Part shown: piece after piece, positions 3,924 through 8,735 of the stretch
How the letters are laid out: the number at the start of each line of letters is the position of its first letter
Position numbering within the stretch: the stretch's first letter is position 1
Source of the DNA: Nocardiopsis sp. CNT312
GTDB taxonomy: Bacteria; Actinomycetota; Actinomycetes; Streptosporangiales; Streptosporangiaceae
Assembly (NCBI RefSeq): GCF_000515115.1
Contig: NZ_AZXF01000011.1
Span: forward strand, 124,001 to 188,000
Reading direction: 5' to 3'
DNA: 64,000 nt
Position numbers and translations under genes: made by a program
The notes under the pieces: generated by a model
Database searches by the model: none
Told to the model about the DNA's origin: nothing
Seen by the model: only the letters and a program-made list of their open reading frames with translations

Positions 3924-3990
3924 GCCGTTCCCCGCACCAAACCTGGCCCAGACGTCATATTCGCATCACCCGGGGTAAGACAGGTCTGCC

Positions 3991-6114
3991 TTGACCGGTC
4001 TCCGGCCCGGACCCAACGATGTGGGGGTGCTCAACCGACCCCACGGGGCCGCCCCCCGAGGAACGGCCGCGGACCTCCTGCACGGCCGCCGCGTCACCGA
4101 CCCCTACCGCTGGCTGGAGGAGGCCGACTCCCCCCGGACCTCGCTCTGGCTGCGCGACCGCGACCGCGAGTACGAGCGGCAGGCCGCCGCCTGGCCGCTG
4201 CGCGCACCCCTGGCCGAGCGCATCCGCTCCCTGGTGGACACCGACCTGTGGACCCCGCCCCGGCAGCGGGGCCCGCTGCTGCTGGCCACCGTGCGCCGCG
4301 CCCGGCGCGAGCACCCGGCGCTGGTCGCCCTGCCCGCCCGCGGCGAGGGCCCGGCCCGCACCGTCTACGACCCCGCGGAGGAGGACCCGGACGGCGGCAC
4401 CACGCTCGACTCCTGGGAGCCGAGCCCCGACGGAGCGCTGGTCGCCGTCCAGACCTCCGTGGGCGGTGTGGAACGCGGCCGGATGCGCGTCCTGGACACG
4501 GCGTCGGGGACACAGGCCGGCCCGGTGGTGGAGGGCGTCCGCTACTCCCACGTGGCCTGGGTTCCCGGCCCCGAACCCGCCTTCCACTACGTGCGCCGCG
4601 ACGGCGTGCGGGGGGTGCGCGGCGTGTGGCTGCGCCGGGTCGCCGACGGCTCCGAGCGCCTGGTGCACGCCTGCACCGCTCCCGCGAGCGTCCCCGGCGT
4701 CCGCGCCCTGGACGGCCGGTGGCTGCTCATCAGCGAGAGCCACGGCACAGGGCACCGCACCGACCTGTGGCTGGCCGACCTCGCCGACCCCCGTCCGCGC
4801 CCCGTCCAGGTGGGCCTGGAGGCCGAGACCGAGGCCCTAGCGGGCCCCGACGGCCTGCTGTACCTGCGCACCACCCTCGACGCGCCACGCCGCCGCGTCA
4901 TGGCGGTCTCCCCCGAGGACCCCGGCGTGGAGCACTGGCGCGAGGTGGTCCCCGAGGACGGTGGCGCGACGCTGGACGCCTTCACCCCCTACGGCACCGC
5001 CGAGCGGCCGGAACTGCTGACGGTGCGCACCCGGTGGGGGATCAGCGAGGCGTCCCGCTACGACGCGCGTTCGGGCGCCCTCCTGTCCGGGGTGGACCTG
5101 CCGGGCGAGGGGATGGCCTCCGACCCCCAGGCGGCCCCGGACGGATCGGTGTACCTGGCCTACGCCGACGTCTCGGAGCAGCAGCGCGTCCTGCGCCTGC
5201 CCCCCGGCTCCTCCCGCACCCTGCCCTGGCCGCCCCGGGCGCACACGGCCCCGCCACCGCCCAAGGTCACCCGGACACTCACCGGCTGCCGTTCGGCCGA
5301 CGGCACCCGGGTCCACATCACCGTCTTCACCGCCCCCGGCACCCCCGGACCGGGGCCGACCCTCCTGCACGCCTACGGCGGGTTCGGGCGGCCCCGCCAG
5401 TTCGGGTTCAGCGCGACCGTCCTGGCCTGGCTTCTGGCGGGCGGGCGCTACGCGGTGGCGCACGTGCGCGGCGGCGGCGACGCCGGACGCGGCTGGCACC
5501 TGGCGGGCTCGGGCCGAAGCAAGCCGCGCGCTGTCGAGGACCTGGTCGCCGCCGCCGACGCCCTCGTCGACCGCGGGCTGTGCACTCGCGCGCAACTGTG
5601 TCTGTCGGGCGGCTCCGCCGGGGGACTGCTCGTCCTGGCCGCCGCCACGTCCCGCCCGGACCTGTGCGCGGCGGTCATCGCCTCCGCGCCGCTGGCGGAC
5701 ATGGCCCGCTTCGAGCGCCTGGGGCTGGGCCGGATGTGGACCCGGGAGTTCGGCACCGCCGCCGACCCCGGCGACTTCGCCGCCCTGATGTCCTACTCGC
5801 CCTACCACCGGGCGCTGGAGCGCTCCTGCGACAGCCCGTCCCCACGCTTCCCCAGCGTCCTGCTCACCGGCTTCCACGGTGACACCCGCACCGACGCGGC
5901 CCACCCGCGCAAGATGTGCGCTGCGCTGCTCGCGGCGGCGCGGGACCGGGGCGGGGAGGCCCCGCGGGCCCTGCTGCGGTACGAGCGCGACGTGGGGCAC
6001 GGCCCGCGCGCGGTCGGCCGTGCGGTGGCACTGGCCGCCGACGCGCACGCGTTCGCGGCCCACGAGACGGGGCTGGTGCCGGGGCGACCCGGTGCCGTCC
6101 CGAACAGAGAATGA
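3991..6114 (+). CDS. Prolyl oligopeptidase family serine protease (S9A)
   Basis: This is a two-domain prolyl-oligopeptidase-like protein of about 700 residues. An N-terminal region begins with the family signature HGRRVTDPYRWLEE, then a beta-propeller, then an alpha/beta-hydrolase domain. From the TTG at 3991 the catalytic residues fall at Ser542 (SGGSAGG), Asp631 (HGDTRTDA) and His670 (DVGHG). The spacings of 89 and 39 match those of classical POP (Ser554/Asp641/His680). No signal peptide is seen, so it is probably cytoplasmic. The start is unsure: GTG codons at 4021 and 4027 would also leave the family N-terminus intact. A 35-codon ORF follows after 29 bases, then an oxygenase gene. POP-type enzymes act as leader peptidases or macrocyclases in several RiPP pathways; that role here is inference. 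Confidence 0.88.
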   Translation: MTGLRPGPNDVGVLNRPHGAAPRGTAADLLHGRRVTDPYRWLEEADSPRTSLWLRDRDREYERQAAAWPLRAPLAERIRSLVDTDLWTPPRQRGPLLLATVRRARREHPALVALPARGEGPARTVYDPAEEDPDGGTTLDSWEPSPDGALVAVQTSVGGVERGRMRVLDTASGTQAGPVVEGVRYSHVAWVPGPEPAFHYVRRDGVRGVRGVWLRRVADGSERLVHACTAPASVPGVRALDGRWLLISESHGTGHRTDLWLADLADPRPRPVQVGLEAETEALAGPDGLLYLRTTLDAPRRRVMAVSPEDPGVEHWREVVPEDGGATLDAFTPYGTAERPELLTVRTRWGISEASRYDARSGALLSGVDLPGEGMASDPQAAPDGSVYLAYADVSEQQRVLRLPPGSSRTLPWPPRAHTAPPPPKVTRTLTGCRSADGTRVHITVFTAPGTPGPGPTLLHAYGGFGRPRQFGFSATVLAWLLAGGRYAVAHVRGGGDAGRGWHLAGSGRSKPRAVEDLVAAADALVDRGLCTRAQLCLSGGSAGGLLVLAAATSRPDLCAAVIASAPLADMARFERLGLGRMWTREFGTAADPGDFAALMSYSPYHRALERSCDSPSPRFPSVLLTGFHGDTRTDAAHPRKMCAALLAAARDRGGEAPRALLRYERDVGHGPRAVGRAVALAADAHAFAAHETGLVPGRPGAVPNRE

Positions 6115-6143
6115 GGAACCCACACGAAATGACGAGGTGTGCG

Positions 6144-6251
6144 ATGGACCCGTTCGAGATCGAGGTCGAGGACCTGGCCGAGGTGACCTCCCGCGACATC
6201 ACCGCGGGCGGCGACAGCGACGGAACCGACTCCAGCTCCGACTTCATCTGA
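6144..6251 (+). CDS. Candidate RiPP precursor peptide, 35 residues
   Basis: This short ORF has a good ribosome binding site (GAGGTG six bases before the ATG). The peptide starts MDPFEIEVEDLAEVTSRDI, is strongly acidic, and ends in a Gly/Ser/Thr/Asp-rich tail (GGDSDGTDSSSDFI). The FEIEVEDLAEV segment resembles the amphipathic acidic leader peptides of actinobacterial class I lanthipeptide and azole precursors (FxLD/FDLD-like). The tail would then be the modified core. It lies between a prolyl-oligopeptidase gene and a JmjC/cupin oxygenase gene, all on one strand with short gaps. No lanthionine synthetase, YcaO, ATP-grasp or radical-SAM gene is nearby. The family was not recognised by name, and the precursor role is inferred from size, composition and position. 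Confidence 0.6.
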   Translation: MDPFEIEVEDLAEVTSRDITAGGDSDGTDSSSDFI

Positions 6252-6318
6252 TCAGGCCCCGCCGGGCGTGCCTGCGCGGCGCGCCCGGCGGGCTCCACCT
6301 CTCATGAGAGGGCACCAC

Positions 6319-7521
6319 GTGACCGACACGGGAGAGCTGTTCACCCGGGCTCTGTGTGACGCCACGGGCCGCGAGACCTTCACCTCGCGCCTGTCCGAGG
6401 GGTTCCTCCTGGCCGACCTGGGCGCGGACACCGTCCGCTCGCTACTGACCTTCGACGACCTCAACGCCGTGATCGCCTCGTGCGCGCCCGAGCCGCCGCG
6501 CCTGCGACTGCACCGGGACGGCTCCCCGGTCCCCGTCGAGCGGTACACCGAGCAGGGGACCGCCTCGCGCACCGCCCGCAGGGTGATCCGCCCCGAGGGG
6601 CTCTACGGCGAACTGCGGTCCGGGGCGAGCCTGGTCCTGGACGGCATCGACCGCATGCACCCGCCGATCGCGGCGGCCGCCGACGACCTCATGCGGCTGG
6701 TCCGCGAGCGGGTGCAGGCCAACCTGTACCTCATCTGGGGGGAGTCGCGCGGGTTCGACACCCACTGGGACGACCACGACACCGTCATCGTCCAGGTGGA
6801 GGGGACCAAGCACTGGCAGGTGCACGGGCCCGGTTCGCGACCGCACCCCATGAAGAACGACACCGACCACTCCCACACGCCGCCCCGCGGCGCGGGCGGG
6901 GAGCTCCAGGTGGTCTGGGAGGGCGTGCTGCGGCCCGGCCAGGTGATCCACGTGCCGCGCGGCTGGTGGCACACGGTGACCGGGACGGGCGAGGTGAGCA
7001 TGCACCTGACGTTCGGATTCACCCGCGCCACCGGGGTGGACTGGGCCGACGCGCTGGTGCGGCGCCTGTTCGACGAGGAGCTGTTCCGCCGCGACCTGCC
7101 GAGGTTCGCCGACGGCGACGAGCGCGGCAAGCACCTGCACGCGCTCCTGGCTCGGTTGGCGGAACTGGCCGAGGAGCACGGCCTGGACGCGTTCCTGGCT
7201 GAGCGGGACGCCCGCTTCCCGCGGCGCACCTCGTTCTCGCTGCCGTGGCCGGTGGAGGACGCCGACCCCGCACCGGAGGCGGTGGTGGAGTTCGCGCCGA
7301 TCCTGCCCCCGCCGCTGGAGCGGGAGGGCGGCCGGGTGAGCGTCACGGTGGCCGGGCGCCGCTACCGGCTCCCGGCCGTGGCCGAACCCGTACTGGATGC
7401 GCTGGCGCGGGAGCGGACCCTGACCGTGGCCGATCTGGCCGAGCGCGTCGGCGGGGACACCGGTGCGACCGCCTCCGTGGTCCGCGCACTGTCGCGGCAC
7501 CACCTGGTCCTCATCCGCTAG
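6319..7521 (+). CDS. JmjC/cupin-4 domain iron(II) oxygenase
   Basis: This is a 400-residue member of the cupin_4/JmjC ribosomal-oxygenase-like family, 2-oxoglutarate- and Fe(II)-dependent hydroxylases of protein side chains. The iron-binding triad is visible: His149 and Asp151 in FDTHWDDHD, and His218 in HVPRGWWHTV. The segment QVEGTKHWQVHGP is typical of the family fold. The C-terminal 70 residues (from about VSVTVAGRRYRLP) resemble the winged-helix tail of these oxygenases. The GTG at 6319 is preferred because AGAGGG lies six bases upstream; an in-frame ATG at 6304 is the alternative. It directly follows the small acidic ORF, so that peptide is the obvious candidate substrate, but a ribosomal-protein target cannot be excluded. 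Confidence 0.82.
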   Translation: MTDTGELFTRALCDATGRETFTSRLSEGFLLADLGADTVRSLLTFDDLNAVIASCAPEPPRLRLHRDGSPVPVERYTEQGTASRTARRVIRPEGLYGELRSGASLVLDGIDRMHPPIAAAADDLMRLVRERVQANLYLIWGESRGFDTHWDDHDTVIVQVEGTKHWQVHGPGSRPHPMKNDTDHSHTPPRGAGGELQVVWEGVLRPGQVIHVPRGWWHTVTGTGEVSMHLTFGFTRATGVDWADALVRRLFDEELFRRDLPRFADGDERGKHLHALLARLAELAEEHGLDAFLAERDARFPRRTSFSLPWPVEDADPAPEAVVEFAPILPPPLEREGGRVSVTVAGRRYRLPAVAEPVLDALARERTLTVADLAERVGGDTGATASVVRALSRHHLVLIR

Positions 7522-7758: not shown

Positions 7759-7794
7759 TTGCCCGCAATGAAATGTTAGGGTAGCCTCACTTCA
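7759..7794 (+). promoter_or_regulatory. Promoter with IdeR/DmdR-type iron box
   Basis: A -35 element TTGCCC (7759-7764) and a -10 element TAGCCT (7782-7787) are separated by 17 bases. Overlapping the -10 is TTAGGGTAGCCTCACTTCA (7776-7794), which matches the 19-bp IdeR/DmdR consensus at 14 positions by eye. The placement predicts repression by iron-loaded DtxR-family regulator and induction of the downstream FhuF-like reductase under iron starvation. Confidence 0.75.
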
Positions 7795-7874: not shown

Positions 7875-8735
7875 GTGACTCAAGACCCGCTCGGTGCACT
7901 GTGCGAGGCGTGTGCACCACTGAAGTTCGCACCGCTGCCCGAGATCACGGACTCCGCCGCCCCTGACCGGCCCCACCGCGCCACCGTCCACTGGTACCGC
8001 TCCGACCACCTGGTGGAGGAGGGTGCCCTGCGCATCCTGCACGACAAGCTGCGCACCGAGCACGGCCCCGGTCACCGCCTGCCCGCCGCCACCAACTTCC
8101 TGCGGGTGACCCTGCGTGAGCCGATCTTCCTGGTGTCGGCGTCGCTGTACCTGACCGGTCGGGCGCCGCTGCTGAGGCCCGACACCCTGTACCTGCCCTG
8201 GGACACCGTCGCCTCACGCTTCGCCACCCCGGCTGTGGCGGGCGCGCACTGGGCGGTGCTTCCCGGTGACACCGCCTCCGGCAGGCCGGACACGGTCACC
8301 GTCGCCGACGAGGACGCCCTGGTGCGCGCGGCCGCCGAAGGCGTGGTCGCCACCTTCGGCCCCCTCCTGGAAGACCTGCACGCCCACTCGCGCGCCGGGC
8401 TGCGGACCCTGTGGGGGTGGGTCGTGGACACCCTGCACTTCTACATGCTCAACCCGGCCCGCTACTTGGGCCGGGACGCCGAACAGGCGTGGGGCCTGGC
8501 CGCTCGCCTGGGCGAGGCCGTGGTCGGGGCGGGCGCGGTGACGCGCCGGCGGCCGCGCCTGTTCCCGTTCGCCCCGCAGCACCCGCGTGGCACGTGGGCG
8601 GTGCGGGGCACCTGCTGCTTCGACTACAAGGCCGACCCCGAGCACGGCTTCTGCACCACCTGCCCGCTCAAGCGCGACTCCGACCGCCGGAAGGACCTGT
8701 CGGAGTGGCTGCGCGACCCCGCGCTCGCCCCCTGA
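7875..8735 (+). CDS. FhuF-like ferric-siderophore reductase
   Basis: This 286-residue protein is of the FhuF/ferric iron reductase type, cytoplasmic enzymes that release iron from imported ferric siderophores. The diagnostic element is the C-terminal [2Fe-2S] motif: Cys247-Cys248, then Cys260 and Cys263 (CCFDYKADPEHGFCTTC), i.e. C-C-x11-C-x2-C. The N-terminal region is weakly conserved, as usual. The start is the GTG at 7875 with GAAGGGCAGG a few bases upstream. The iron box in its promoter agrees with iron-limited expression. No siderophore biosynthesis or uptake genes are adjacent. It ends 12 bases from the convergent gene. Confidence 0.85.
   Translation: MTQDPLGALCEACAPLKFAPLPEITDSAAPDRPHRATVHWYRSDHLVEEGALRILHDKLRTEHGPGHRLPAATNFLRVTLREPIFLVSASLYLTGRAPLLRPDTLYLPWDTVASRFATPAVAGAHWAVLPGDTASGRPDTVTVADEDALVRAAAEGVVATFGPLLEDLHAHSRAGLRTLWGWVVDTLHFYMLNPARYLGRDAEQAWGLAARLGEAVVGAGAVTRRRPRLFPFAPQHPRGTWAVRGTCCFDYKADPEHGFCTTCPLKRDSDRRKDLSEWLRDPALAP

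Follow-up and report, generated by a model that had tools for sequence, protein, structure and literature searches.

A candidate RiPP-type operon pairing a JmjC oxygenase with a small acidic peptide in Nocardiopsis

The operon and its genes

We analysed a 64,000-nucleotide stretch of DNA from Nocardiopsis sp. CNT312 (GCF_000515115.1, contig NZ_AZXF01000011.1, positions 124,001 to 188,000, forward strand), referred to here as the window, in which three co-directional genes encode a prolyl oligopeptidase (POP), a 35-residue peptide and a JmjC oxygenase (Table 1). An initial annotation had proposed that these genes specify a ribosomally synthesized and post-translationally modified peptide (RiPP), and the spacing that it reported, 29 bases between the POP and peptide genes and 67 bases between the peptide and JmjC genes, was borne out when the open reading frames (ORFs) of the window were re-read. 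Scanning of genome contigs with the JmjC protein yielded 72 loci for comparison (L numbers; genomes have G numbers). A RiPP pathway is the likely interpretation of the operon.

Table 1. Features of the operon and the linked FhuF-like gene (window positions)
Feature	Position	Strand	Basis
Conserved promoter -35 hexamer TTGACC	3991..3996	+	Alignment of relatives' upstream regions
Specialised prolyl oligopeptidase (S9), start GTG 4027	4027..6114	+	PF02897 (5.9e-36), PF00326 (3e-31); 2bkl match; S1-pocket changes common to relatives
35-aa precursor-like peptide gene, start ATG	6144..6251	+	Found in 51/51 loci; pN/pS 0.12
Proposed leader, residues 1-21 (MDPFEIEVEDLAEVTSRDITA)	6144..6206	+	Inferred; leader-like part common to related peptides
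Proposed core, residues 22-35 (GGDSDGTDSSSDFI)	6207..6248	+	Inferred; near-invariant in close relatives
Stable hairpin, 15-bp stem, no T run, directly 3' of peptide gene	6258..6292	+	Shuffle tests
JmjC Fe(II)/2-oxoglutarate oxygenase, putative winged-helix region at C terminus, start GTG, 400 aa	6319..7521	+	PF08007 (1.6e-23); invariant residues; weak winged-helix matches
Iron-box-like site upstream of FhuF-like gene	7776..7794	+	14 or 15/19 against the iron-box consensus, by orientation
FhuF-like [2Fe-2S] reductase; linked gene in a separate unit with iron box	7875..8735	+	PF11575; sole FhuF_C match in genome; co-occurrence

The JmjC protein has the features of an Fe(II)/2-oxoglutarate (2OG) oxygenase, an HxD...H motif and a lysine for 2OG. 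His149, Asp151 and His218, described as intact in the initial annotation, are confirmed to be so, and together with Lys164 they are invariant in an alignment of 51 JmjC sequences. In a search of solved structures, the positions of the HxD motif and the lysine aligned with those of NO66, Lys164 falling on its 2OG lysine. The closest relatives in the PDB are NO66 entries (E 5.7e-11); MINA entries and the L16 arginine hydroxylase (E 0.0011) are also among them. Besides this gene, the genome encodes two related JmjC proteins, one 39% identical (at locus L002) and one 29% identical.

The POP combines propeller and hydrolase domains with a Ser-Asp-His triad, as expected of the S9 family, and a check of the triad upheld the claim that all three residues are intact. 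It is a diverged second copy: the genome contains a paralog at 42% identity, and the closest solved chain is 2bkl (E 7.7e-85). The canonical proline S1 pocket (N555, W595 and Y599, in porcine POP numbering) is altered. Among 49 relatives, position 555 is Ala in 42 and Thr in 2 (5 gaps) and position 599 is Phe in 43 (6 gaps), whereas the paralog and 2bkl have Asn and Tyr, respectively; the pocket tryptophan W595 is retained. No NCBIfam family matched the POP, the peptide or the JmjC protein above its cut-off.

The initial annotation started the POP gene at TTG 3991. This assignment did not survive alignment of the relatives' upstream regions, in which the TTG is part of a conserved -35 box. The promoter is kept in relatives as TTGACC, about 18 bases, AAC.ATGTGA and then, in most, GTG-CGC-AAC-CGA, an arrangement that fits a reading frame beginning at the GTG of the last element, and the transcript is probably leaderless. 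A further conserved block, AAACCT..CC....CACA, lies upstream of the -35 box (window 3930-3996). Tested for a long palindrome that could act as an operator upstream of the promoter, this block came out negative (mean z 0.75; 1 of 36 above 3), and the idea was dropped.

A small peptide gene under selection, and its relatives

The small ORF encodes the 35 residues MDPFEIEVEDLAEVTSRDITAGGDSDGTDSSSDFI. Use of the ATG at 6129, which is in frame, would lengthen the peptide by five residues; the starts in relatives correspond to the MDP position. The initial annotation had allowed that the ORF might lack conservation beside homologous oxygenase genes or might not be translated. We found it in 51 of 51 loci with JmjC identity of at least 49% and available upstream DNA (L033-L084, without L053, whose contig begins 64 bases upstream), and a DxDGxD peptide precedes JmjC in 52 of the 72 loci when L096 is added; L085 is also cut by a contig end. 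Codon statistics were computed from 49 sequences (the window and its relatives, with three Pseudonocardia sequences excluded), which reduce to 43 distinct DNA sequences, or 41 after two with an extra Gly were dropped. Variable columns at codon positions 1, 2 and 3 numbered 3, 5 and 18 of 23, and the ratio of nonsynonymous to synonymous polymorphism (pN/pS) was 0.12 in frame, against 4.0 and 2.0 in the shifted frames. Conserved beside the oxygenase gene and held by purifying selection at the protein level, the ORF is a translated gene, and the precursor idea stands up to the refutation set by the initial annotation.

A GC-rich hairpin follows the peptide gene in the window (z -4.9). When 60 bases were tested in each of 52 loci, dinucleotide shuffles gave z below -2 in 34 (mean -2.74), including the Pseudonocardia locus L081 (z -3.0); mononucleotide shuffles gave z below -2 in 67% of the 52 loci, compared with 5% of 159 60-mers drawn at random from these loci. 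No significant hairpin was found in the 60 bases of L082 (z -1.2), L084 (z 0.2) and several others, which keep the peptide.

The peptide contains no Cys, and an Ala precedes Gly at the proposed leader/core border in all 49 sequences of the codon test. A protein database search with the peptide returned 10 clusters, the named ones being hypothetical or uncharacterised. No curated family in Pfam or NCBIfam matched it above cut-off, and six related peptides gave a single weak NCBIfam match, below cut-off. We found no plasmid copies of the ORF, and no description of the peptide or operon in the curated families or the open-licence literature searched. The small ORF is a real gene, apparently for an undescribed precursor.

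The initial annotation anticipated a conserved leader with a variable tail. Between lineages this pattern was found: small peptides lie directly upstream of related JmjC genes, and they share a leader-like part followed by lineage-specific tails rich in D, G, S, T and N. Within the window lineage it was not, the tail being nearly invariant (15 distinct tails among the 43 distinct DNA sequences). Shuffle tests connected the window peptide with that of Pseudonocardia (z 7.4), Pseudonocardia with L096, a locus of a metagenome-assembled genome (z 4.5), L096 with Actinomadura (z 7.4), and the window with L002, the second locus of its own genome (z 3.1), so that the peptides of the window, Pseudonocardia, L096, the Actinomadura type and L002 are linked in a chain.

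Elsewhere, a DGGSTGKSDLNDG-type peptide occurs in seven loci (L090-L095 and L101) and an FPEVEV-type peptide in five (L086-L089 and L100); the ORFs of L097 and L104 include a leader-like stretch but continue differently, and L103 is cut at its start. A leader-like small ORF was present at six (L130-L134 and L151) of eight further JmjC loci that were read (L129-L134, L149 and L151). Four of these, L130-L133, have one leader type, GL(L/V)...R.I.AAR.R, with differing tails (ESDVSGGRSDGND, ASDNTGGRSDMNDS, SDGGGTGRTDTND and PSDGGGTGRSDGND), and they show more clearly than any other loci seen a conserved leader combined with a variable core. Each lineage has its own accessory genes: the POP accompanies the window type, and an aldo/keto reductase occurs in L002, L093 and L133.

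Several of these loci have features of their own. At L002 (G000 contig C24, 1264-3477), the window genome has a second small ORF with JmjC and aldo/keto reductase genes, of a type seen in Actinomadura and Spirillospora; its JmjC frame seems broken in this assembly between the catalytic and C-terminal parts, and the JmjC frame of L096 (7902-9200) is broken at the same place. In Actinomadura-type loci, gene names of the APH-like and XRE kinds were not borne out by Pfam. Beside the FPEVEV-type small ORF of L086 (8001-16037), Pfam identifies an arginase, a radical SAM protein, a second JmjC/Cupin_8 protein and an aldo/keto reductase, and sequence similarity indicates a nearby ABC transporter. The L086 locus is a candidate for another RiPP cluster; its small ORF and JmjC gene recur in L087-L089 and L100, and the JmjC relatives of this whole group come from Kitasatospora, Streptomyces and Brevibacterium.

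A possible pathway and its alternatives

The window-type JmjC (E at most 1e-90) was present in 68 of 297 genomes drawn from the order and in 37 of the 39 same-genus genomes among those listed; the two without a match, G224 and G233, are in 970 and 550 contigs. Its near-universal presence in the genus and the near-invariant core suggest a conserved physiological product and not an arms-race antibiotic. Two hallmarks of RiPP loci are found here, a short encoded precursor under protein-level selection and an intact candidate modifying enzyme alongside it, and we judge it somewhat better than an even bet that the operon specifies a minimal RiPP-type pathway in which the JmjC hydroxylase is the tailoring enzyme. 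The peptide would be a precursor with a leader of about 21 residues, in which the hydrophobic/acidic stretch FEIEVEDL could serve for recognition, and a 14-residue acidic core. The JmjC protein, guided by its putative C-terminal winged-helix region, would hydroxylate the core, with Asp side chains as the most likely targets. Removal of the leader by the specialised POP would follow, and the likeliest cut lies behind the invariant Ala21 (TA|GG): the retention of the Ala-Gly border without a conserved Pro suggests a cut after Ala. The hairpin may keep the precursor more abundant than the enzyme, and the product might act, with the neighbouring FhuF-like reductase, in metal (iron) handling. Hydroxylation, cleavage and metal binding are what we infer for this system.

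A number of observations weigh against this pathway. The locus set was built through JmjC, so that the presence of JmjC in every locus is a matter of construction. The winged-helix and helix-turn-helix matches of the JmjC C-terminal region (including ROXA-like_wH), which might bind the leader in the manner of a RiPP recognition element, are weak and all below cut-offs, and the C-terminal piece of the L081 protein matched no helix-turn-helix family. The peptide has no conserved Pro, the usual site of POP cleavage, and in L065 has none at all. The POP was found in 49 of 55 sequences examined, the six without it being L096, three from Pseudonocardia and two truncated where their contigs end; no POP lies near JmjC in the Pseudonocardia, Actinomadura-type and L096 loci and none was seen in L086-L104, and because of its absence from the Pseudonocardia, L096 and L086-L104 loci we assign the POP to the window lineage and not to the whole family. 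Direct shuffle comparisons of the window peptide with those of Actinomadura (z -0.3) and L096 (z 1.4) were not significant, the L086-type peptide was unlinked to the others, and no such peptide was found at the JmjC loci L098, L099, L102, L129 and L149. The operon of the window genome contains no exporter; the nearest seen is a major facilitator superfamily (MFS) gene about 1 kb past FhuF on the other strand. Finally, the near-invariant tail would also fit a small structural partner of JmjC.

That last point leads to a different account, in which the small protein remains unprocessed and serves the JmjC enzyme as a stable partner, inhibitor or activator, the substrate of the enzyme being a different protein, as with ROXY enzymes. 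Near-invariance of the peptide in about 50 loci and the NO66, MINA and L16 hydroxylase entries among the JmjC relatives, which act on ribosomal proteins, favour such a role, but it leaves aside the specialised POP within the same operon and the persistence of the leader-like part between lineages whose tails differ, and we consider it distinctly improbable. If the peptide is a precursor, JmjC might still hydroxylate a conserved Arg in place of the Asp residues of the core, as YcfD does with an Arg of a ribosomal protein. The peptides of most lineages have an Arg where leader and core meet (SRD, RRE, GRA), which, with the L16 arginine hydroxylase match, speaks for this site; the closer match to NO66 speaks against it, and the Arg precedes the proposed cut site, where it may serve recognition or cleavage. 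We regard hydroxylation of Arg as unlikely, if worth keeping in mind. Control of JmjC expression by translation of the small ORF and the hairpin behind it would make the peptide a regulatory leader. The hairpin does stand between the two genes in 34 of 52 loci, but selection acts on the amino acids while third positions are free, the window hairpin has no T run, and L082, L084 and several others keep the peptide without a significant hairpin; a regulatory leader peptide is disfavoured by the codon-position test and seems very unlikely.

The possible metal function turns on the FhuF-like gene, which lies 3' of JmjC with or without an intervening cassette. In L041 (9222-12851), as in many relatives though not in the window, this cassette comprises TetR, ABC-2 exporter and DUF2306 genes (Pfam); its genes may form an exporter or have been inserted without connection to the operon. 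Gene counts in the 55 sequences examined were TetR 30, ABC 19, FhuF 47, POP 49 and PanD 29. The near neighbours identified in the window are LNT, a MalK-type ABC ATPase, the FhuF-like protein, DUF4352, MFS, aspartate decarboxylase and DEAD helicase genes. We scored iron boxes against a 19-position consensus, with POP upstream regions and a scan of the whole window as controls in place of shuffles. The site before FhuF is the only one of at least 14/19 on either strand of the window, and in 46 of 46 relative loci scored the corresponding site reaches 15-17/19 in the better orientation. At the POP promoter no iron box was found, the best scores in the upstream regions being 9-12/19; a score of 15 for L043 is the FhuF site, misread owing to a truncated POP. 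The window FhuF subfamily is present in all 68 genomes with the window-type JmjC and in two more, G224 (same genus, fragmented) and G243 (another genus, the genome of L096). In G243 the gene adjoins JmjC and a DNDGND peptide and has an iron box of 17/19; the protein falls below the cut-off of the Pfam FhuF model and matches the window protein at 41%. A second, distant FhuF match (33-37%) occurs in 18 of 70 genomes, and in G142 a second copy reaches 52%. The FhuF_C genes of the Pseudonocardia and Actinomadura genomes are of other types than that of the window. The Pseudonocardia loci L081, L082 and L084, which lack the POP, have instead a divergent sucrase/ferredoxin-like (Suc_Fer-like) gene (PF06999 in 3/3).

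A metallophore role, with a hydroxylated DxDGxD core binding Fe(III) and the FhuF-like protein releasing the iron, would be compatible with the JmjC-tailored pathway, and metal handling by the product is possible. It would account for the constant company of FhuF and JmjC, including G243, and for the iron boxes. Only FhuF has such a box, however, so that the biosynthesis genes lack the iron regulation expected of a RiPP metallophore; the co-occurrence is partly plain synteny, since PanD is also syntenic within the wider block, and is mostly explained by clade membership; the sole FhuF_C gene of the genome may serve ordinary siderophores; and neither the second FhuF of some genomes nor the absence of this FhuF type from Pseudonocardia and Actinomadura fits well. 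We hold the metallophore role to be doubtful. Its most specific form is a ribosomal siderophore, in which beta-hydroxylation of the three Asp residues of DxDGxD by the JmjC enzyme would provide as many as six oxygen groups for iron binding, the peptide would be freed by the POP, and iron release would fall to the co-inherited, iron-boxed FhuF-like reductase, the whole belonging to the core genome of Nocardiopsis and close relatives; this is a speculative proposal and a decidedly improbable one.

Comparison with known systems

ROXY-type enzymes (NO66, MINA and YcfD) resemble the JmjC protein in their PF08007 domain with HxD...H and lysine and, as far as its weak matches go, in a C-terminal winged-helix region. 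Targets of ROXY-type JmjC enzymes are ribosomal proteins; here, in contrast, the JmjC gene is paired with one for a tiny peptide. The occurrence of JmjC enzymes in operons for peptides may already have been predicted, reportedly, by Iyer et al. in 2010 in work on peptide-modifying dioxygenases. PMC2922099 cites that work.

As in flavipeptin, a class III lanthipeptide, a POP is encoded with a putative RiPP precursor. The flavipeptin protease FlaP cleaves behind Pro(-12) of the leader, and does so efficiently only when the peptide is modified (PMC10885120). The window operon differs in having no lanthionine synthetase (LanKC) among the near neighbours identified, no Cys in the peptide, no conserved Pro at the border and an altered S1 pocket.

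Action of JmjC proteins on RiPPs is already published. BipG gamma-hydroxylates an ornithine of a RiPP precursor in vitro (PMC12707348), and co-expression with PbsQ makes Orn9 heavier by 15.99 Da (PMC12257519). BipG/BpmG (biphenomycin) and PbsQ are, like the enzyme described here, JmjC or cupin-like oxygenases that accompany a ribosomal precursor; they act beside MNIO, B12-radical SAM and arginase enzymes, whereas none of these is adjacent here and the core is acidic. Fish and algal PF08007 proteins have a fold like that of a RiPP recognition element, and their closest bacterial homologs lie in RiPP-like contexts; the accessible part of that report describes no precursor or pathway like that of the window (PMC12710340). 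Set beside these systems, the peptide and operon, for which the sources searched gave no earlier description, point to a RiPP family with JmjC as its main tailoring enzyme and an almost fixed product. Near-universal in the genus as drawn, this product has more in common with a cofactor or a metallophore than with antibiotics. The operon would extend the set of JmjC peptide hydroxylases with a two- or three-gene system, and its POP is an example of an S1 pocket altered in nature.

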